DNA of 34,082 nt from a virus, in the IMG/VR virus record IMGVR_UViG_3300031759_000093, positions 1-34,082 of that record. One strand, written 5' to 3'. The notes under the pieces were generated by a model, which did no database searches, had not been told where the DNA came from, and saw only the letters and a list, made by a program, of their open reading frames with translations. Position numbers and translations under genes: made by a program. Positions within the stretch are counted from its first letter, which is position 1, and each line of letters opens with the position of its first letter. Shown here piece by piece: positions 3,580 through 31,628 of the stretch.

Positions 3580-3699
3580 ATGTACAGTAAGCCTTGTAGT
3601 GGTTGTGCTGTTATTAAAAACGTGAGTTTTTCAACTCATAATACATGTATAATAGAGGGCTTTCGGGCCCTTTATTATTTATTAAGAAATAAGTTATAA
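3580..3699 (+). CDS. Possible 39-residue Cys/His mini-protein
   Basis: An ORF whose ATG directly follows the stop of the sigma-like gene (TAAATG). The product has Cys6, Cys9, His20 and Cys23, a C-x2-C-x10-H-x2-C spacing that could bind zinc. Against it, an intrinsic terminator at 3654-3682 lies inside the 3' half, so many transcripts would end before the stop codon. There is no clear RBS beyond possible coupling to the upstream gene. It may be real or chance. Confidence 0.3.
   Translation: MYSKPCSGCAVIKNVSFSTHNTCIIEGFRALYYLLRNKL
3622..3639 (+). other. Small hairpin
   Basis: TGAGTT (3623-3628) and AACTCA (3633-3638) form a perfect 6-bp stem with a TTTC loop, 15 bases before the terminator stem at 3654. 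No T-run follows. Confidence 0.35.
3654..3682 (+). terminator. Intrinsic terminator before the packaging genes
   Basis: AGAGGGC (3654-3660) pairs with GCCCTTT (3667-3673, one G-U) around a TTTCGG loop, followed by a T-rich tail. It separates the sigma-like gene from the head gene cluster, which therefore probably has its own promoter. Confidence 0.75.
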
Positions 3700-20490: not shown

Positions 20491-22854
20491 ATGGCTGAAC
20501 AAGATAATGAAACTACTGATAAAGTCTTAATGAAAAGACTTGCCGCTATTGGTATTAAAATAGAAGTAGACCAGGATTATATTAACAGACAGTTAAGTCC
20601 TGCTATGGCAGCTATATCTAAAAAGCTTAATCAGTTATCCAAAGAAAGTAAAATGGATAAAGATGGTATCTTCGGAGCAAAGTTTTTTCAAGATAAAATT
20701 AAAAACATTACTGGTTTTGATTATGCTTTAATAAAATCTACTAAAACAATGCTTGGTTATGGTTTAGCTTCTAAAAATATGAACCTCGATAATCAAGAAT
20801 TTTATAAGAGTTTAGGCTTTATAAGTAAACGTTTAGTAGATGTAGCTTCTGGCATTACAAGCTGGAGAAAAGCCGGAAAAGATGCCTCTGACCAGTCAAA
20901 AGAAAATACTTCAAGTTTAGCTTCAGCATTAGCATCCGCAGATAAAAATAGTGCTACTTTAGCCGCTGGTCTTGATAGTGTTGCCACATCAGCAGAAGTA
21001 GGAGCTGTTGAAATGGGAGCATTTGCTACAATCGCTACTGGTGGATTAGCATTATTAGCTGTAGCTATTGTTGGTATAGGCGCAGCATTCTATAAAATGT
21101 TTACTTCTGCGATGTCTGCGAGAGATGAGGTTAAAAAGTTTGACCAGCTTGTTGTGGGTATGGGACAACAAGGTGTCACGGAATTCGCTGGTAAATTACA
21201 GCATTTAAATAAAGCTGTTTGGGGATTAGGGTTTTCATTAGAACAAGTAAATGGTGTAGCTCTTGATTTTGCTAAAGCTGGTGTTAGTCTTGGTAGGTCT
21301 CTTGATACTAATTTAGTAAGTAGTGTATTAACTCTATCTGGAGCCACAGGAGTAGCTTCAAGTGAAATTAGTGGTTTATACGGCGAATTATTAAAGTCTA
21401 CAAAGATAAGTGTCGACTCCTTAACAGCAATGGGAGATACGTTTACAAGATTTAATCAAATAGTTTTTAACGGAACAAATCTTGGTCAAGTATCTTTTGC
21501 TACATTTAGAGAAGCTATATCGTCTTCTGCCAATGCTTTAGCTATTGCTACTGCGCGTGGAGAAGAGTTTACAAATAAAATGACAAGAGATTTAATGTCA
21601 TTGTCTGGATTAGCTACAACATTAAGTTTAAGTGTATCAGAACTTAACGGGCTATTCGAATCTGCTGGTAGTCTAATTTCTGACCAAAACTCGCCATTTA
21701 GAGCTTTCTTGGCTATTTCTGGTGGTGCTAATATAAATCAAATGTTAACTAACCAATTTGATAAAACTGATGCTATGTTAAGAGGAATAACCTTTTTACA
21801 AAACTTAAATAAGAGTTTTGGAGAAAATATCCAAATAACAGCACAAGTCGGTGCTCAATTATCTGGTTTATCAAAAGAAACTGTTATTAAAATGATAAAT
21901 ACAAGACAGGAAACTATTGCTGATATGTTAAAAGCTCAACAACAGTTAGCTACTATTCAAACAGATGCTACAAAAGATGCTTATGAGAAGGTTAATAGTG
22001 ATTTAACTTCTGTATGGAATAGAATTAAAACAATGTTCGTAACGATGTTCCAAAACATTATAGGCGGTTCAAGTGGAATGAATAATTTATTAAGAAGTGT
22101 TGAAAATTTCTTAATGGATTTCAAAAGAACTATGGAACATAGTGGTTTAATAGATACTCTTGGAAAAATAGTAGACAAAGTAGCTAATTGGTTAGGTAAT
22201 AACCTTGTTCCAATGATTGAGTTTGTTAATAAAATGTTATCAGATTTTGCTAATCCAGATAAAAGTATCTGGAAAAGTCTTATAGATTTAATAGTAGATG
22301 GGTTAAAATTACCTTTTTTCCTATTAGGCCAATTAGCAGGAGAAGGGTTTAGAGCAGCAATGGCAAATGTCTCTATTTTAGGTATGAAACCTTTTGCTGG
22401 AGCAAAAACAAGAGAACAAATAGAAAAAGAATTATCAGAAAAGCGCGGTGTTTTAGGTAGTTTTGGAAACAATAGAAATATGCCAGAATTAGACTATTTA
22501 AATAATAGGTTATCTGCTATAGATAAACAAGAAGGGCAATTATCTAAATATAGTCCAGATACGGTGACGTATGGTAAAACAGCTGGCGGTAAAGTTGGTT
22601 TTATGACTGTTGGACAAAAAGAGTATGCTTTAGAAGAAGAAAAGAAAAGAGTTCAAGCTGAAATAGCTAAAAATACTAAATCTGCCGCAGAAGATATACA
22701 TGAAGTAAGATTAGCGGTTTGTCATACTTCTGCTGATACTGAAAAGATAATAGGAACGCCTGCTAAACCAGTTAGTCCATTAGCTAAACTTACTGTTAAT
22801 AGCGCTGGAATGCCAAGTATGCCTGTATTGCATAGTATGGCTAATGGCGGTTAA
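20491..22854 (+). CDS. Tape measure protein
   Basis: A 787-residue, largely helical protein downstream of the hub gene, the place of gene 29 in T4. It has an Ala/Ser-rich helical N-terminal third, a strong membrane-type segment at about 178-202 (ATIATGGLALLAVAIVGIGA), and long heptad-like helices. A second hydrophobic stretch (LPFFLLGQLAGEGF, about 607-620) and a charged C-terminus follow. These are usual tape measure features: the length of the helical protein sets tail length, and the hydrophobic segments may insert into the host membrane for DNA entry. At about 1.5 Angstrom per residue this would give a tail near 120 nm. T4 gp29 has 590 residues. Confidence 0.8.
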   Translation: MAEQDNETTDKVLMKRLAAIGIKIEVDQDYINRQLSPAMAAISKKLNQLSKESKMDKDGIFGAKFFQDKIKNITGFDYALIKSTKTMLGYGLASKNMNLDNQEFYKSLGFISKRLVDVASGITSWRKAGKDASDQSKENTSSLASALASADKNSATLAAGLDSVATSAEVGAVEMGAFATIATGGLALLAVAIVGIGAAFYKMFTSAMSARDEVKKFDQLVVGMGQQGVTEFAGKLQHLNKAVWGLGFSLEQVNGVALDFAKAGVSLGRSLDTNLVSSVLTLSGATGVASSEISGLYGELLKSTKISVDSLTAMGDTFTRFNQIVFNGTNLGQVSFATFREAISSSANALAIATARGEEFTNKMTRDLMSLSGLATTLSLSVSELNGLFESAGSLISDQNSPFRAFLAISGGANINQMLTNQFDKTDAMLRGITFLQNLNKSFGENIQITAQVGAQLSGLSKETVIKMINTRQETIADMLKAQQQLATIQTDATKDAYEKVNSDLTSVWNRIKTMFVTMFQNIIGGSSGMNNLLRSVENFLMDFKRTMEHSGLIDTLGKIVDKVANWLGNNLVPMIEFVNKMLSDFANPDKSIWKSLIDLIVDGLKLPFFLLGQLAGEGFRAAMANVSILGMKPFAGAKTREQIEKELSEKRGVLGSFGNNRNMPELDYLNNRLSAIDKQEGQLSKYSPDTVTYGKTAGGKVGFMTVGQKEYALEEEKKRVQAEIAKNTKSAAEDIHEVRLAVCHTSADTEKIIGTPAKPVSPLAKLTVNSAGMPSMPVLHSMANGG

Positions 22855-26006: not shown

Positions 26007-27272
26007 ATGACAACTTCCTCATCTTCAGTTCCAGTTTTAGGCCCAGTATTATATTTTACATCAACAGATGGTTATTCTTACGATGTAGATAATAGGCCAT
26101 TATCTAATTTAGATACAAATATTAGACACATAAATACTTCTCTTGTTGGTATAGGATATGGTGAACACGCTTCTTTAGCTGGCGGCCAATTAGCTCCTGG
26201 AACAGTAGTTTCTTTAGCACCAAATGGAGCTATTTTTTATCCAATTACAGTCCCCTCTGTTAATTTAATGCAGAATATTGTTGGCCTTGTTATTGGAGCT
26301 ACAGACTCCGGTTTAAATAGAGTTATTTGGTCTTCAAAGCATTTAGATTTAGATGTTATTGGTTTAACTTCGATAACTGCTGGACAAGCTTCTGGTAGCT
26401 ATTTAACTACGCAATCTGGTGGTAATGGAGCTATTGTTGTAAAAACAACACCAAATACAACAACAGACTATATTTTAGGTAGAATTAAAAACGGACCATA
26501 TATCGAAGTTAATACAGCAGCAGAACTTATTGCTAATGATGCTTCTATAGCAGTAAATAATGCTGTATTAGATAATCATGCTAATATGTATGGTTTTACA
26601 AGATTAAGAAACTTATTAATGTATATTGATATGGGAGTCACTCCTATGCAATATATTAAAAGAACTGTTAGACAGTCTGATTATTATGGAGTAAGCTCTG
26701 TTGTAAATCCAATGAACGTTGGGCTATCTTCTGATTTAACTACTATAGCTCCGCTGTCTTCCGACTCTACTGTCTATGGTAGCGCTCTTGATAATAAAGT
26801 AATCAAAGAAAGTTATACAAGTTATATAAATACTGGAGTTTCTCCATCAGATTCCGTATCTGTAAGTGGAGTAGCAAGCACTTGGTCTTCTATTGTATAC
26901 GCAACTGCTCTTCCTTATAGTTATAATTCTCAAAACTACGAACTTCAACAAATTGCCTCTACTGGTGGATTTGATTATAGTTCTAACGTTCAGTTATTTA
27001 AAAACTTTCAAATTGATAAATACTATCAATATAATAAAACAATTTCTGCTAACCTTGTTGGTAAAATAGCAGCTACTGCTACAGTATTTAATCCATTAAA
27101 TATTTCGGGCCAAGGTGGAGAAACTACCAGAACTATAGTTTGGGACTTCTTCTCTTATAGTATTTCTGGATTAGAAACATATAAATATAGAGTAATAACA
27201 AATGGACAGTCCTCTGAAACTGCTTTGTTATCCAGCACAGGAATATTCCCATCCGTATTAATAACGATTTAA
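26007..27272 (+). CDS. Tail/baseplate protein with N-terminal YDVDNRPLxxLD motif
   Basis: A 421-residue protein. After a short Ser-rich start, residues 25-39 read YDVDNRPLSNLDTNI. The fibre-like protein at 28392 has the same motif (DVDNRPLLDIQNNI), and a divergent form occurs at 30996. After it both share a QLxxG region leading to a short hydrophobic strand (FYPI here, LIPI there). The middle is beta-type with GASDSGLNRVI-like segments, and around residues 180-220 there is a helical part (LRNLLMYIDMGVTPMQYIKR). It probably docks a fibre or wedge part to the baseplate through the shared N-terminal module. The family is not identified by me, and the role is inferred from its neighbours. Confidence 0.7.
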   Translation: MTTSSSSVPVLGPVLYFTSTDGYSYDVDNRPLSNLDTNIRHINTSLVGIGYGEHASLAGGQLAPGTVVSLAPNGAIFYPITVPSVNLMQNIVGLVIGATDSGLNRVIWSSKHLDLDVIGLTSITAGQASGSYLTTQSGGNGAIVVKTTPNTTTDYILGRIKNGPYIEVNTAAELIANDASIAVNNAVLDNHANMYGFTRLRNLLMYIDMGVTPMQYIKRTVRQSDYYGVSSVVNPMNVGLSSDLTTIAPLSSDSTVYGSALDNKVIKESYTSYINTGVSPSDSVSVSGVASTWSSIVYATALPYSYNSQNYELQQIASTGGFDYSSNVQLFKNFQIDKYYQYNKTISANLVGKIAATATVFNPLNISGQGGETTRTIVWDFFSYSISGLETYKYRVITNGQSSETALLSSTGIFPSVLITI

Positions 27273-27282
27273 CAGAGTTTAC

Positions 27283-28071
27283 ATGTCAAACATGATACAA
27301 CCAGCTTTTGATTTAAAGACATTACTACCACCATTCCATACGCATAAACTACCATCAGCTGGCTTTTTCTCTGAAACTCCCGCAGAAATAAATATTCGTG
27401 GTCTTACCATCAGAGAATTAAAGCATTTAACAGCTTCTGGAAGATTAGATAAGAAAGTATTTGACCAAACTATTGCTTCTTGCGTTAAAGAAACTATAGA
27501 TTTTTCAAACTTATTATTACAAGATTATAATTATATTGTATATTTAACAAGACTTTATACTTCTGGTTCTGAAGCCAGTGGTGCCAAACGGTGTGAAAAT
27601 CCACAATGCGGTACTAAATACAATTTTAAATACGATTTAACAGAACACGCAGAGACAACATTTTTGGAAGAAGTTTTACCAATATCTAAAACTGTTATTT
27701 TACCAAGATTTAAAGAACGTTTTGGATATGAAGTAGTAGCAGAAGTTAAACCACTAACCCGTGGAGATTATCTAAAAATAGATAAAGCTATTCAGCAAGC
27801 GGCAGACCAAGCAGCCAAGACTGGACAACCTATGTCCAGCTACCCTCTTACCGAGCTTCTAAAGGCCCATATCATGTCGATATCAGGTTTGCCTGCCCAA
27901 GTACCCAAAGAACAGCTTCTGGACTATTTAGACCCATCAGAGGCTAATTTAATAACATCAGCATACCCAGATGATAATTTTGGTTTATCTGGTAAGGCTA
28001 TTACTATTTGTCCAGTTTGTAAGACAGAACAGGAGTTCGTGATTCCGTTCACGGACATCTTTTTTCAATAG
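27283..28071 (+). CDS. Baseplate hub assembly protein, gp26/gp51-like, with zinc-ribbon cysteines
   Basis: A 262-residue protein resembling the T4 baseplate protein family of gp26 and gp51. It has an N-terminal PPFHTHKLPSAG segment, an INIRGLTIRELKHLT helix and a C-terminal CPVC. Cys104, Cys109, Cys243 and Cys246 (CENPQC and CPVC) form a likely zinc ribbon. The reading frame ends at TAG 28069-28071, two codons after a TTTTTTC run at 28060-28066. The +1 frame is open from 28043 to 28333 with protein-like sequence, so a frameshifted long form of about 349 residues is likely. The pattern recalls the G/GT tail chaperones of lambda-like phages. It probably helps to assemble the hub. Confidence 0.7.
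   Translation: MSNMIQPAFDLKTLLPPFHTHKLPSAGFFSETPAEINIRGLTIRELKHLTASGRLDKKVFDQTIASCVKETIDFSNLLLQDYNYIVYLTRLYTSGSEASGAKRCENPQCGTKYNFKYDLTEHAETTFLEEVLPISKTVILPRFKERFGYEVVAEVKPLTRGDYLKIDKAIQQAADQAAKTGQPMSSYPLTELLKAHIMSISGLPAQVPKEQLLDYLDPSEANLITSAYPDDNFGLSGKAITICPVCKTEQEFVIPFTDIFFQ
28060..28066 (+). promoter_or_regulatory. Candidate frameshift slippery site TTTTTTC
   Basis: In the gp26-like frame this reads TTT TTT C, with CAA TAG following. A tRNA-Phe (anticodon GAA) can slip +1 from TTT to TTC. A -2 slip gives the same frame. A -1 slip would hit a stop within five codons, so only +1 or -2 explains the downstream frame. Confidence 0.55.
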
Positions 28072-28333
28072 TTTCTTAAACCTTGATATTCCTATTACCC
28101 AAGAGTACTATAACGTTATCGAATCAATTTTATTAGAGTTTTTTCATAATGGATTAACATATAAAGATATAATACAACTTCAAGTTTTTTTAAGAGTAGT
28201 TTTAAAAATGGAGTTTATGTATACAGATTTTGCTACACCAATAGATTTTATGAATTACTATAGTGTAGCAGAAGAGATTGAAAGAAAAAAACAAGAAGAA
28301 ATAGAAAACAGCAAAAGAGAGCAATATAAATAA
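28067..28333 (+). CDS. Frameshift-encoded C-terminal extension of the gp26-like protein
   Basis: 88 residues in the +1 frame relative to 27283-28071. The frame is open from 28043, upstream of the slip site, with no ATG, GTG or TTG start before ATG 28208. The sequence is protein-like: LDIPITQEYYNVIESILLEF, then GLTYKDIIQLQVFLRVVLKM, then an acidic and Lys-rich helix at the end (EEIERKKQEEIENSK). About 55 sense codons before the first ATG in this AT-rich DNA would be unusual by chance. It may instead be a separate 41-residue protein from 28208, which has TAAGAG upstream. The long fusion is preferred and would act as a tail chaperone or bind the tape measure or hub. Confidence 0.6.
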   Translation, partial: NSFLNLDIPITQEYYNVIESILLEFFHNGLTYKDIIQLQVFLRVVLKMEFMYTDFATPIDFMNYYSVAEEIERKKQEEIENSKREQYK

Positions 28334-28367: not shown

Positions 28368-28380
28368 AATTAATTTTGAG
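28368..28380 (+). promoter_or_regulatory. Degenerate leader motif before the fibre-like gene
   Basis: AATTAATTTTGAG resembles the recurrent AATTAASTT leader motif and lies 12 bases before the ATG at 28392, after a terminator-like hairpin. Confidence 0.25.
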
Positions 28381-28391
28381 TGAGACTTTTC

Positions 28392-30989
28392 ATGCCAATA
28401 AATCTAAAACCTGTTAATGTTTATCAAGAGTTTGAACCATACGATGTTGATGTAGACAATAGACCACTATTAGATATACAAAACAATATTCAAGAAATAG
28501 TAGGTTTATTAGAAAACTCTGGCTTTTATTCTGAAATAGCGGCAGATCCTTCTCAACTACCGGCTGGCGGATTTTCTACATTTACTTGTGCTTGTATTGG
28601 TACAAATAGCTTATTAATCCCAATAGACATATCTAAATCTATTATTGAAATTGATTATACTACCTTGCCAATTGTATTAATTCTTGGATATAATATAGAT
28701 ACAAACACTTATCAATGTCTATCCTTTTCTGCTGGCATAACTTTAACCAGCAAATTCGCATCCTTTGTTTCTGGTTCTCAAGGAAGATTATTAAAAGTTG
28801 GCCCTGGCGGTGTTTTAGTTGACCAAATGTACTATGATTTGGCTTATGCTTCGTCTGGTTATCAATCTTTATACGTTGGTAAAATATTAGGCCCTAATAG
28901 TATAGTTTTTGGTGGAAACCAAGTTAGTATTTTAGGAAATAATTTTTATTTAGCTAAAAATAGAGACGACTCGACTTCTGGATTAATAACAGTTCAAAGA
29001 GCTAATTCTACTTCGAACACAGTATTTAAGTCTGTAAACATTAATGATGTAGGCTCTTCTTATAATTATGCTGAATATGTTAATAGTTATGGAGCTATAA
29101 GTTCTAATTCTTATTCTGTACCAATATATTTTTCTTCTTCGGAATTAGATTTTGACCAATCTACTGGATTATTTTTAGCTCCGGTATTAGAAGCTCAACT
29201 TAATGAAATACACTTTTTAACCCCTTCCATAACTACTTTCACAGGGGCTTCTCAAACATATTTAACAGCTGGTATAAATGTAAGAAGTTTATTAGATTTT
29301 ACTTCTTTAAACTTAATACATACTTCAACATATTCAAATAGCATATCAGAATTAACACAAGATATTAGCACTAAACTTATTTTTCAAGATAGAGTTTCCT
29401 CTACTCCAGTTCCTATTGGTTTACAATTTAATAATACTCCTATAACTGTAGGAGATAAAATACTTGCTTCAACAAACCAACCAGCTAATCTATTACCAAT
29501 TACTGATACTACCGGTATTACTATTGCTGATTATTTTAACACCGCCGGTGGTTATATTGGCGGTGTCCAGGATAATTCTGCTCTAACTACTACAAGGAAT
29601 ACAGTATCACAAGACCAATTAATACAATCAAATGCTAATTTTACTACAAACGGCATAAATGATTATTCTAACAGTTTTACTTTACTAATTTCTGCTAAAT
29701 CAAATACGTCTATACCATCAAATATTGCTCTTTCTTCTGATGGATATATTAATTTAAGTTCTGGTAATGGTATTTTAACAAACCAAAAAAATCCTGTATT
29801 AGATGCTGAACTAACTTCAAAAAAATATGTAGATACTAAGGTATTGAGTATAGCATCTTCTGCTAATACAAAAGTTCCTTTAACTGGAACAACTAATAAA
29901 GACGCCTCTGGAAATATATCTACTGCTCCAATTACAGGTAAACTTGATTTTGATGTCACTAACAGCCAAATATCAACTTCACAAGTATTAGTATTTAATA
30001 GTATAAATACAGCAGATATTTTATCCGCAAATCCCATTAATGTTTTTCAATCTGATGGGACAGATTATCAAATTGTAAAGGTAGGAAATACTGCTTGGAA
30101 CACATCAAACAGCGTTTTAACTAATTTACAAGGAATTAGAGAAGCCGTAAGTAAAGATTTTTTATACAGTTATTACGAACAAGTTTCTTCAACTGGAGCT
30201 TTTGTACAAACATCTCCAGCTAATCCAACTATACCACAAAATATAACTGGACAAATAACTATTACAGGCGCTCCTGGAGATACTGGTGTCCAACTTGAGT
30301 TAGAAAATGTGTTGTCTGATAGTGTTAATTTAAGGTTAACTACTACAACAGGCTCCCCAGTTGATTTTACTATGGATAATAGTGCTTTAACTATAAGTTC
30401 TCCATTAGCTCCAGTATTATTAACAAGAGCTTCTGTAAATACTGATGCCGCATTATCTATCCCAACAAAAGGTTATGTAGATGCCGCAGTTGCTTCCGTA
30501 ACAGCCGCTACAGTAACTCCGTTTTATGCTATTTGGAACCAAAAAAATGCTCCTGGTTCTCTTATAACTGTAGGTAGTATTACGTATTCTTGTGCTTTTG
30601 CTACTTCTGGAACAGACGCTGGAGCAGATACGCAAACTAATTTATCTTCGTTATTTACACCAGGAGCTGGTGGTTTACTATATAAAGCATCTAATGCTCA
30701 TCCAATAGTATTACAAATAAACGCTGGAGCTTCTTGGTATCAACAGGTAGGTCCTGGAGGCGGAAACCAGCAGTGGAGAACAAGTTGTAATATTTTAGTA
30801 AATACTACTATTGTTGCGTCATCCGAGGAACAATTTTCTGGTTCACTTTCCGCAAGACCAACCTCTTCTGTATCATCTATTGTAGTATTAAATCCTGGAG
30901 ATACGTTAGTTGTTGGTGCTAAAGTTAATAGCGATTTAACTGGAACAAACGCTATTGACCAATATTTAAGTATGGCAAGAATAGGATAA
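28392..30989 (+). CDS. Tail fibre-like protein
   Basis: An 865-residue protein. Residues 17-32 read YDVDVDNRPLLDIQNN, the same motif as the protein at 26007. The long middle is beta-rich (Ser, Thr, Asn, Ile). Two TKxYVD-type motifs, SKKYVDTKV and TKGYVDAAV, are common in trimeric phage tail fibres. The C-terminal 150 residues (after TPFYAIWNQKNAPGS, with GASWYQQVGPGGGNQQWRTS and VVLNPGDTLVVGAKV) look like a globular tip domain of the TNF/C1q-like jelly-roll kind. I choose ATG 28392 rather than GTG 28380 because GTGAG lies 8 bases before it. It is probably a fibre anchored to the baseplate through its N-terminus. Confidence 0.75.
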   Translation: MPINLKPVNVYQEFEPYDVDVDNRPLLDIQNNIQEIVGLLENSGFYSEIAADPSQLPAGGFSTFTCACIGTNSLLIPIDISKSIIEIDYTTLPIVLILGYNIDTNTYQCLSFSAGITLTSKFASFVSGSQGRLLKVGPGGVLVDQMYYDLAYASSGYQSLYVGKILGPNSIVFGGNQVSILGNNFYLAKNRDDSTSGLITVQRANSTSNTVFKSVNINDVGSSYNYAEYVNSYGAISSNSYSVPIYFSSSELDFDQSTGLFLAPVLEAQLNEIHFLTPSITTFTGASQTYLTAGINVRSLLDFTSLNLIHTSTYSNSISELTQDISTKLIFQDRVSSTPVPIGLQFNNTPITVGDKILASTNQPANLLPITDTTGITIADYFNTAGGYIGGVQDNSALTTTRNTVSQDQLIQSNANFTTNGINDYSNSFTLLISAKSNTSIPSNIALSSDGYINLSSGNGILTNQKNPVLDAELTSKKYVDTKVLSIASSANTKVPLTGTTNKDASGNISTAPITGKLDFDVTNSQISTSQVLVFNSINTADILSANPINVFQSDGTDYQIVKVGNTAWNTSNSVLTNLQGIREAVSKDFLYSYYEQVSSTGAFVQTSPANPTIPQNITGQITITGAPGDTGVQLELENVLSDSVNLRLTTTTGSPVDFTMDNSALTISSPLAPVLLTRASVNTDAALSIPTKGYVDAAVASVTAATVTPFYAIWNQKNAPGSLITVGSITYSCAFATSGTDAGADTQTNLSSLFTPGAGGLLYKASNAHPIVLQINAGASWYQQVGPGGGNQQWRTSCNILVNTTIVASSEEQFSGSLSARPTSSVSSIVVLNPGDTLVVGAKVNSDLTGTNAIDQYLSMARIG

Positions 30990-30995
30990 TTAAAA

Positions 30996-31628
30996 ATGGA
31001 TAATAAGATTGTACATTATAGCGCTTCTCAAACAATACCAGACGCAGAGTTTTTACCTCTTTTACGAGATGAAGCTCCTTATTATGGTAATTTAAATAGA
31101 CCAGCTCAATCTGCTTTTGATTTAGCCAGTACTGTAGCTGAATTACAATCTTGGGGTGGATTAGTTAGTATTGTAAATCCAGCAAATCAAACACATGTTT
31201 TTCAATTATATGAAATTGGTAGAATACAAGATGGAGAAACTCTGGTAGCTTCGACAATAACAGACCCTCCTTATAGCAGATATGGTATTGTAGTTGCGGA
31301 AGCAGAGTTTAATCCAATTTCTGGGTTATATTCAAATATAGTAGTATGTACTTTCTGCCCAAACTTTGTATATCCTGTAGCGCCTCTTTGGACTGGTGAT
31401 GCTAATGGAGAATATTTGTATCTTAATGTCCCTAATTCAGACGCTACATATTTAACAAGCACTCCAGGAATAAGCAGCGGAAATATTTCAAGAGCACCAT
31501 TAGCAGTTAAAACGGGAACAAACACTATATTCTTTTCTGGAACAGCAAGATTATTTGGTATAAATACAGGAATAGTTTTATCTGGCCCAACTGGTGCTAC
31601 TGGCCCAACTGGTGCTACTGGTGTATAA
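30996..31628 (+). CDS. Tail protein with N-terminal NRP motif and collagen-like C-terminal repeats
   Basis: A 210-residue protein. Residues 29-50 (YYGNLNRPAQSAFDLASTVAEL) look like a divergent copy of the DNRPL motif of the two neighbouring proteins. The middle is beta-rich (GIVVAEAEFNP, NGEYLYLNV). The end is GPTGATGPTGATGV, collagen-type Gly-X-Y triplets encoded by two identical 18-bp units. Collagen-like ends usually form triple helices in trimeric fibres. The gene overlaps the next by one base (TAATG). It is probably a short fibre or adaptor that passes its trimer axis to a partner. Confidence 0.65.
   Translation: MDNKIVHYSASQTIPDAEFLPLLRDEAPYYGNLNRPAQSAFDLASTVAELQSWGGLVSIVNPANQTHVFQLYEIGRIQDGETLVASTITDPPYSRYGIVVAEAEFNPISGLYSNIVVCTFCPNFVYPVAPLWTGDANGEYLYLNVPNSDATYLTSTPGISSGNISRAPLAVKTGTNTIFFSGTARLFGINTGIVLSGPTGATGPTGATGV
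31584..31619 (+). repeat. Tandem 18-bp repeat coding Gly-Pro-Thr-Gly-Ala-Thr
   Basis: GGCCCAACTGGTGCTACT occurs twice in direct succession (31584-31601, 31602-31619). It is a short collagen-like tract at the end of the upstream gene, and may vary in copy number among relatives. Confidence 0.9.

Follow-up and report, generated by a model that had tools for sequence, protein, structure and literature searches.

A conserved shifted-frame extension suggests +1 frameshifting in a probable gp26-like tail assembly chaperone from a T4-type phage

A gene of the T4 gp26 family, very likely encoding a tail assembly chaperone, was found to end inside an overlapping open frame displaced by +1 (or -2), and both the extension encoded by this frame and the UUU_UUU_C motif at the junction are conserved in divergent relatives. 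Judged from these sequence comparisons, the frameshift is conserved and very probably translated, and a +1 slip of tRNA-Phe from UUU to UUC is its likely mechanism, by which a single chaperone gene would yield a short form (TAC-N) and a long form (TAC-NC). The window, i.e. the whole stretch of 34,082 nucleotides that was analysed, is a 34-kb virus record with matches to terminase, portal, protease, capsid, tube, sheath and UvsX, and its source is a freshwater T4-type phage. The features referred to below are the following.

20491..22854, + strand: candidate tape measure protein of 787 aa, presumably the chaperone's client (from its translation, which has a hydrophobic segment)
27283..28071, + strand: TAC-N, zero-frame putative tail assembly chaperone gene of the T4 gp26 family, 262 aa (PF12322, phrog_150, structure model, VIA-align)
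27592..28023, + strand: split four-cysteine zinc-ribbon-like element, C104/C109 and C244/C247 of TAC-N (from sequence; weak in VIA-align)
28043..28333, + strand: open +1 frame overlapping the end of the TAC-N gene (sequence, conservation, shuffles)
28060..28066, + strand: proposed shift site UUU_UUU_C, in which the P-site UUU at 28063-28065 would re-pair with UUC at 28064-28066 (invariant in 5/5 clade lineages)
28067-28330, + strand: TAC-C, the part that would be read after the shift, 88 aa, closed by TAA 28331-28333 (predicted three-helix domain, low confidence)
28069..28071, + strand: zero-frame stop TAG, two codons past the proposed shift codon with only CAA between (sequence)

The zero frame runs from ATG 27283 to TAG 28069-28071, and the gene ends in GAC ATC TTT TTT CAA TAG. 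On rechecking the sequence, the coordinates that a first-pass annotation had given for the zero frame, for TTTTTTC (28060-28066) and for the +1 frame (28043-28333) proved exact. Its description of the frames was likewise reproduced: the first ATG, GTG or TTG of the +1 frame is codon 48 past the site, which leaves about 55 codons after 28043 free of a standard start, the -1 frame closes 4 codons on, where a stop within five had been stated, and the +1 read-through product was computed at 349 aa, the length that had been estimated for the fused protein. The open -1 frame that goes with an X_XXY_YYZ site is hence missing from the window.

The layout of the window is shared by four divergent relatives, namely L014, L121, L122 and L123-L126 (the last have the same site and extension and were counted as one lineage), so that together with the window it was found in 5/5 lineages. 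The zero frame ends in F-F-(Q/L)-stop in the four relatives, with TAG or TAA at the equivalent place in all five lineages, TTT_TTT_C is invariant in 5/5 and followed by AA, AG, TA or TT, and the extension lies in the +1/-2 frame throughout, with 82 to 90 codons. The five extensions could be aligned over 82-88 codons at 29-46% identity. In this alignment the second codon position was the least variable in 10/10 pairs of distinct lineages and the third the most variable in 9/10, the exception being the pair of the window and L123. The 88 codons of the window stayed open in 0/5000 dinucleotide shuffles, and the extension of each of the four relatives in 2-5 of 5000. The extension is single-copy in each of the 6 records searched, two of which carry the window's own DNA. 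The five lineages are mutually related and do not, therefore, represent five independent tests. A private sequencing error is unlikely because the same DNA runs through the site in three public contigs (L001-L003), each with one difference from the window, at position 29838, in 8.8 kb.

Decisive for the conservation case was a scan with the upstream neighbour (A8), which yielded L121-L126. Scans with P0001, P0002, A2, A3, A6 and A7 returned only the three same-DNA contigs, L014 and the partial L004, which ends short of the site and was excluded from site counts. A pattern search of contigs with A6 gave 61 pattern matches, 0 of them confirmed, and tblastn of two extensions (window and L121) against phages found no match. 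The first-pass annotation had proposed a candidate programmed +1 (or -2) frameshift in a gp26-like gene, and this is now well supported, with the extension open, conserved and coding in 5/5 lineages and with the +1 ORF, its offset and the TTTTTTC site all retained in the alignment of homologues. Two outcomes that it had named as counter-evidence were not encountered: in none of the +1-frame relatives examined do the two frames form one unbroken gene, and conservation of the +1 protein extends across the clade.

The identity of the zero-frame product was assessed by family profiles and by structure. TAC-N was matched by PF12322 at E 2e-5 (24.8 bits, cut-off 24.5) and by phrog_150 at E 7.6e-9, and PF12322 reached E<=0.01 in 5/6 aligned TAC-N members. 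A genome-wide PF12322 search was positive in 4/6 records and failed to pick up this gene in the two sister records of the window, for which reason the PF12322 match is regarded as marginal. A TAC-N profile matched the gp26 of the -1-type phages described below at E 6e-7 (prob 92), and at the level of sequence it is this profile match to gp26, not the single-family PF12322 match, that carries the family assignment. Among the PDB entries in VIA-align, the structure model of TAC-N (pLDDT 84.6) ranked YqbN, which we take to be a tail assembly chaperone, first (Z 7.2, rmsd 5.4, 90 aligned) and the tail assembly chaperone of HK97 second (Z 5.8, rmsd 4.0, 85 aligned). Both matches cover TAC-N residues 2-96, with the next row at Z 3.2, and their values are moderate, a Z under 8 possibly reflecting a common arrangement. 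Foldseek of the model against the PDB gave no match at E<=0.001, and the named matches in BFVD were mostly baseplate hub proteins, many others being uncharacterised or nameless. Over the four-cysteine part, the VIA-align rows were weak (NrdR, Z 3.2 and 3.0; ZPR1, Z 2.8). Because the moderate fold scores, the sequence family and the frameshift design point the same way together, the gene at 27283-28071 very likely encodes a tail assembly chaperone. Its earlier label of gp26-like baseplate gene stands in the first part, given the PF12322 and gp26 profile matches, but baseplate is better replaced by tail assembly chaperone, the YqbN and HK97 chaperones ranking first.

Shifted-frame extensions are also found in other T4-type phages, though in the opposite direction. 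In 8/8 named phages (KVP40, Melnitz-3, Cr30, S-CAM1, Ah1, vB_OspM_OC, Mendera and S13), gp26 ends in NNT TTT TTY and the extension lies in the -1 frame (T_TTT_TTY). By rule, -1 on T_TTT_TTY was assigned in 79/80 contigs, these being the best 80 of at least 571 confirmed matches and a narrow sample, fetched with one cyanophage-type extension query; the sole exception, L073, has the same T_TTT_TTC site and a -1 extension, with its gp26 frame broken upstream. XacN1 and CM1 carry a C-domain-like extension in -1 and stand outside the 8/8 count, and LR756511, in which the -1 frame is open and the domain short and unclear, was left out of every count. In S-CAM1 (L018), Ah1 (L019) and S13 (L022), the unannotated stretch from gp26 to the next large ORF corresponds to the -1-frame C-domain. 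A profile of the -1-class C-domain matched a 45-residue stretch at the end of T4 gp51 (E 3e-5, prob 74), which suggests that in T4 gp51 corresponds to the long form and gp26 to the short one. This fits the short and long chaperone genes of T4, which we take to be genes 26 and 51.

Such an arrangement has precedent, as Vladimirov et al. 2022 is cited for some T4-likes that possess one short and one long gene in place of a frameshift (in passages of PMC10885494), and poly-T sites are given as known -1 signals in T4-like TAC-N genes (in passages of PMC12846349). The first-pass annotation, which knew of no frameshift described for the gp26/gp51 family, needs correction here, since these same sources refer to frameshifted T4-like chaperones as published (Vladimirov et al. 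2022; PMC10885494, PMC12846349). Whereas gp26/gp51 as T4-type chaperones and the -1 principle are already known, the +1 direction at UUU_C looks new for the family; a literature search found no +1 shift in gp26-family chaperones, and Vladimirov et al. 2022 may contain one. The window has in common with the T4-like chaperones the PF12322 family, the short/long design and a shift near the Phe-Phe end of TAC-N. It differs from the T4-like cases examined, which shift -1 on T_TTT_TTY, in leading to the +1/-2 frame from a zero frame of TTT_TTT_C, and from T4 itself, which has two genes where the window has one gene and a shifted-frame extension. Most of the -1 class shares the TTTTTTC heptamer with the window clade, the two groups reading it in opposite phases.

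Relatives that share the frame of the window were found by protein searches with L123, L121 and LIS04, which led to phages both isolated and assembled, namely Bacillus SP-15, Listeria LIS04, Streptococcus GXN1, Flavobacterium immuto and the megaphage LR756508, all with extensions in the +1/-2 frame. Added to the five clade lineages they make ten +1-frame members, which are not independent, five being one clade and SP-15, LIS04 and GXN1 being related. Homology to the -1-class C-domain was seen for the extension of SP-15, LIS04 and GXN1 (E 1e-6, prob 91), which indicates that different phages arrive at a single domain through shifts in opposite directions. The extensions of immuto and LR756508 matched weakly, both to the SP-15 group (E 5e-4, prob 32) and to the -1 class (E 0.0014, prob 17). 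For the window clade, all comparisons of the C-domain with other TAC-C domains lay at E 0.015-0.13, including E 0.015 against the SP-15 group and E 0.043 against the -1 class (none of them significant), and the comparison with T4 gp51 gave E 0.65. The 88-residue extension of the window is probably helical, its model showing three helices at low confidence (pLDDT 65.6). Annotated short hypothetical ORFs in SP-15 (L142:2821-2940) and immuto (L143:2821-2931) have the same frame and stop as the +1 extension and are probably pieces of the chaperone C-domain.

An in-frame UUU_C was found at most 8 codons from the stop in 9/10 +1-frame members, that is, in the window and 8 of the 9 others. Further upstream, of the Phe codons outside the last 12 codons before the stop in these ten genes, 10/95 are UUU_C (six genes affected), the 12-codon end zone having been chosen after the sites were seen. 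The exception is LIS04, which is 65% identical to SP-15 and reads TTT_AGT; as it extends in the +1/-2 frame without UUU_C, the shift takes another form in at least one relative. A downstream NCC_CGA_TTY, common to SP-15, LIS04 and GXN1, could be an alternative shift site for these three. UUU_C alone is not sufficient, because six of the ten genes have it in their body and because Cr30 has an in-frame TTT_C at its gene end, yet extends in -1. The seventh base of the site, C, is kept across the clade, though the window prefers TTT for Phe (290/381) and TTA for Leu (539/877). No downstream RNA structure that might act as a stimulator stood out from shuffles (z -0.56 to +2.0), and of the two Gln codons the window uses CAA more often, so that no pause signal is seen except the nearby stop.

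We infer that slippage occurs, in which direction and how rarely, and what the two forms do, along the following lines. Most ribosomes would stop at TAG 28069 and release TAC-N. In a minority, tRNA-Phe on UUU 28063-28065, with the A site awaiting CAA, would slip +1 to UUC 28064-28066, which would be a better pair than UUU for its GAA anticodon; by sequence, this re-pairing to UUC would be perfect in all nine UUU_C members. The shifted ribosomes would go on to complete TAC-NC of about 349 aa, with the helical C-domain at its end. Phage lambda makes a short chaperone, gpG, and a minor frameshifted long form, gpGT, in tail assembly (described in part of PMC5009743). By analogy with these, many short copies may bind the tape measure protein, while few long copies may recruit tail tube subunits. 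The lambda gene shifts -1 and the window +1/-2, and the likeness considered here is that of their short/long designs.

A programmed -2 shift would arrive at the same reading frame, by the P-site tRNA-Phe on the second UUU re-pairing two bases back within U6 and adding one extra Phe. U6 is present in 5/5 clade lineages and in SP-15 (UUU_UUU_C, as in the window clade) and LIS04, the latter of which would also be accounted for, and re-pairing of a single tRNA is allowed in the window clade. There is precedent for this direction, as passages of PMC3498833 describe a -2 frameshift in the tail chaperone gene of phage Mu and an HIV site, U_UUU_UUA, that can be altered to -2; Mu shares with the window the chaperone and the relative frame and differs by the -2 mechanism. 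However, no U6 run is found in immuto (AGC TTT_CTT), LR756508 (AAC TTT_CTA) or GXN1 (TTC TTT_CGT), and a -2 slip is disfavoured because tRNA-Phe would there land on GCU, ACU or UCU. A tandem -2 slip would furthermore have its first tRNA on UCU, UGU, UAU, CAU or UCU in the clade, and the retention of C7 would go unexplained. The -2 route is thus considered unlikely, and +1 better supported, if short of proof.

Separate production of the C-domain as a stand-alone small protein, through internal initiation or reinitiation, is considerably less probable again. The first-pass annotation had held that a normal start codon for the second ORF in relatives would speak against a frameshift; none is conserved among the +1-frame relatives, but an ATG that overlaps the stop is an annotated gene start in 3/8 named -1-type relatives (KVP40, Cr30 and Mendera). 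An in-frame ATG or GTG also lies just upstream of the site in L121, L122 and L123, L014 has an in-frame ATG at 3626, deep within the gene, and some extensions contain early start-like codons. The positions of these candidate starts are not conserved, however, the window has no ATG, GTG or TTG from 28043 to extension codon 48, and the conservation of the shift site would be left without an explanation. Transcriptional slippage, in which RNA polymerase would add or drop bases on T6 so that part of the mRNA encodes an in-frame fusion, was rated marginally lower still: the window clade has the T6 run at the junction, but T6 is short for slippage by bacterial RNA polymerase and the run at the site does not exceed TTT in three +1-frame relatives. 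Homopolymers are prone to indels, but a sequencing error, or a decayed gene whose end has drifted out of frame, is scarcely credible given the identical offset in four divergent lineages besides the window, the constraint on the extension as coding sequence and the three other contigs that carry this DNA, and a layout that appears both conserved and coding is the product of neither chance nor sequencing error.

The +1 slip has a close counterpart in influenza A PA-X, for which UCC_UUU_CGU is a demonstrated +1 site (passages of PMC3498833 and PMC8310308) and whose authors, Firth et al., predicted a wider class of UUU_C +1 sites (PMC3498833, in the same passages). As proposed for the window, the mechanism favoured there is a slip of the P-site tRNA-Phe from UUU to UUC, with no known 3' signal. 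PA-X differs in belonging to an animal RNA virus, in its unrelated gene and in a rarely used A-site codon, and its UUU_CGU was found only in GXN1 among the ten +1-frame members. For HF1-like haloarchaeal myoviruses with two chaperone ORFs, a +1 shift at TTT-CGC has been proposed without experiment (part of PMC7230728). They resemble the window in the chaperone gene, the +1 direction and a UUU_C type site near the stop; their hosts are archaea, and the likeness considered here is one of site and gene role. Tailed phages of different kinds use -1, -2 or +1 shifts (part of PMC5009743). Listeria phage PSA, which the first-pass annotation had listed as a +1 precedent among tail chaperones, does not serve as one, its +1 sites being attributed to the capsid and tail-shaft genes in the passages of PMC5009743.

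The genes around the chaperone were inspected as well. The candidate tape measure gene, which no family match identifies, lies upstream of the chaperone gene, three ORFs separating the two, and this order is opposite to the usual one; if 20491-22854 is indeed the tape measure gene, the chaperone of the window does not lie between tube and tape measure. In LIS04, the chaperone gene is located between the tail tube and tape measure genes, and that of immuto stands ahead of the tape measure gene, from which it is separated by a single short ORF lying in the extension. Both flanking genes of the window (26007-27272 and 28380-30989) contain a segment with DVDNRPL near the start, a sequence feature which suggests that the genes either side of the chaperone encode related structural proteins. 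The upstream one, 26007-27272, is conserved in L004 and L014, and a further ORF, 30996-31628, ends in collagen-like GPTGATG repeats (31580-31628). Directly behind the extension, L123:6407-7228 (also in L124 and L126; L125:5043-5864) is an ORF that starts with a GIY...YIG-like motif, at a position taken by a large ORF in the window, L014, L121 and L122. From its sequence, the GIY...YIG-like ORF is likely a homing endonuclease inserted beside the frameshift gene.

Taken over the whole family, the +1-slip account raises the possibility that the gp26-family chaperone switched frameshift direction in evolution and that UUU_C is a general +1 signal in bacterial phages, a proposal we hold to be somewhat more plausible than its negation. 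The -1 class would slip from U_UUU_UUY to UUU_UUU and the window clade, in mirror image, from UUU_UUU_C to U_UUU_UUC, while the Streptococcus phage, the Flavobacterium phage and the megaphage would make do with only the minimal UUU_C. If the switch is real, UUU_C matches the class predicted by Firth et al. The finding would also explain unannotated gaps or odd small ORFs in the genomes of S-CAM1, Ah1, S13, SP-15 and immuto. Through frameshifting, tail chaperone genes govern the proportion in which two assembly factors are made, and here one gene family appears to do so through a -1 shift in some phages and the +1 frame in others, near the same Phe-rich end. This difference in direction would constitute a natural experiment on the evolution of recoding signals, and would provide a candidate UUU_C +1 signal in bacteria.
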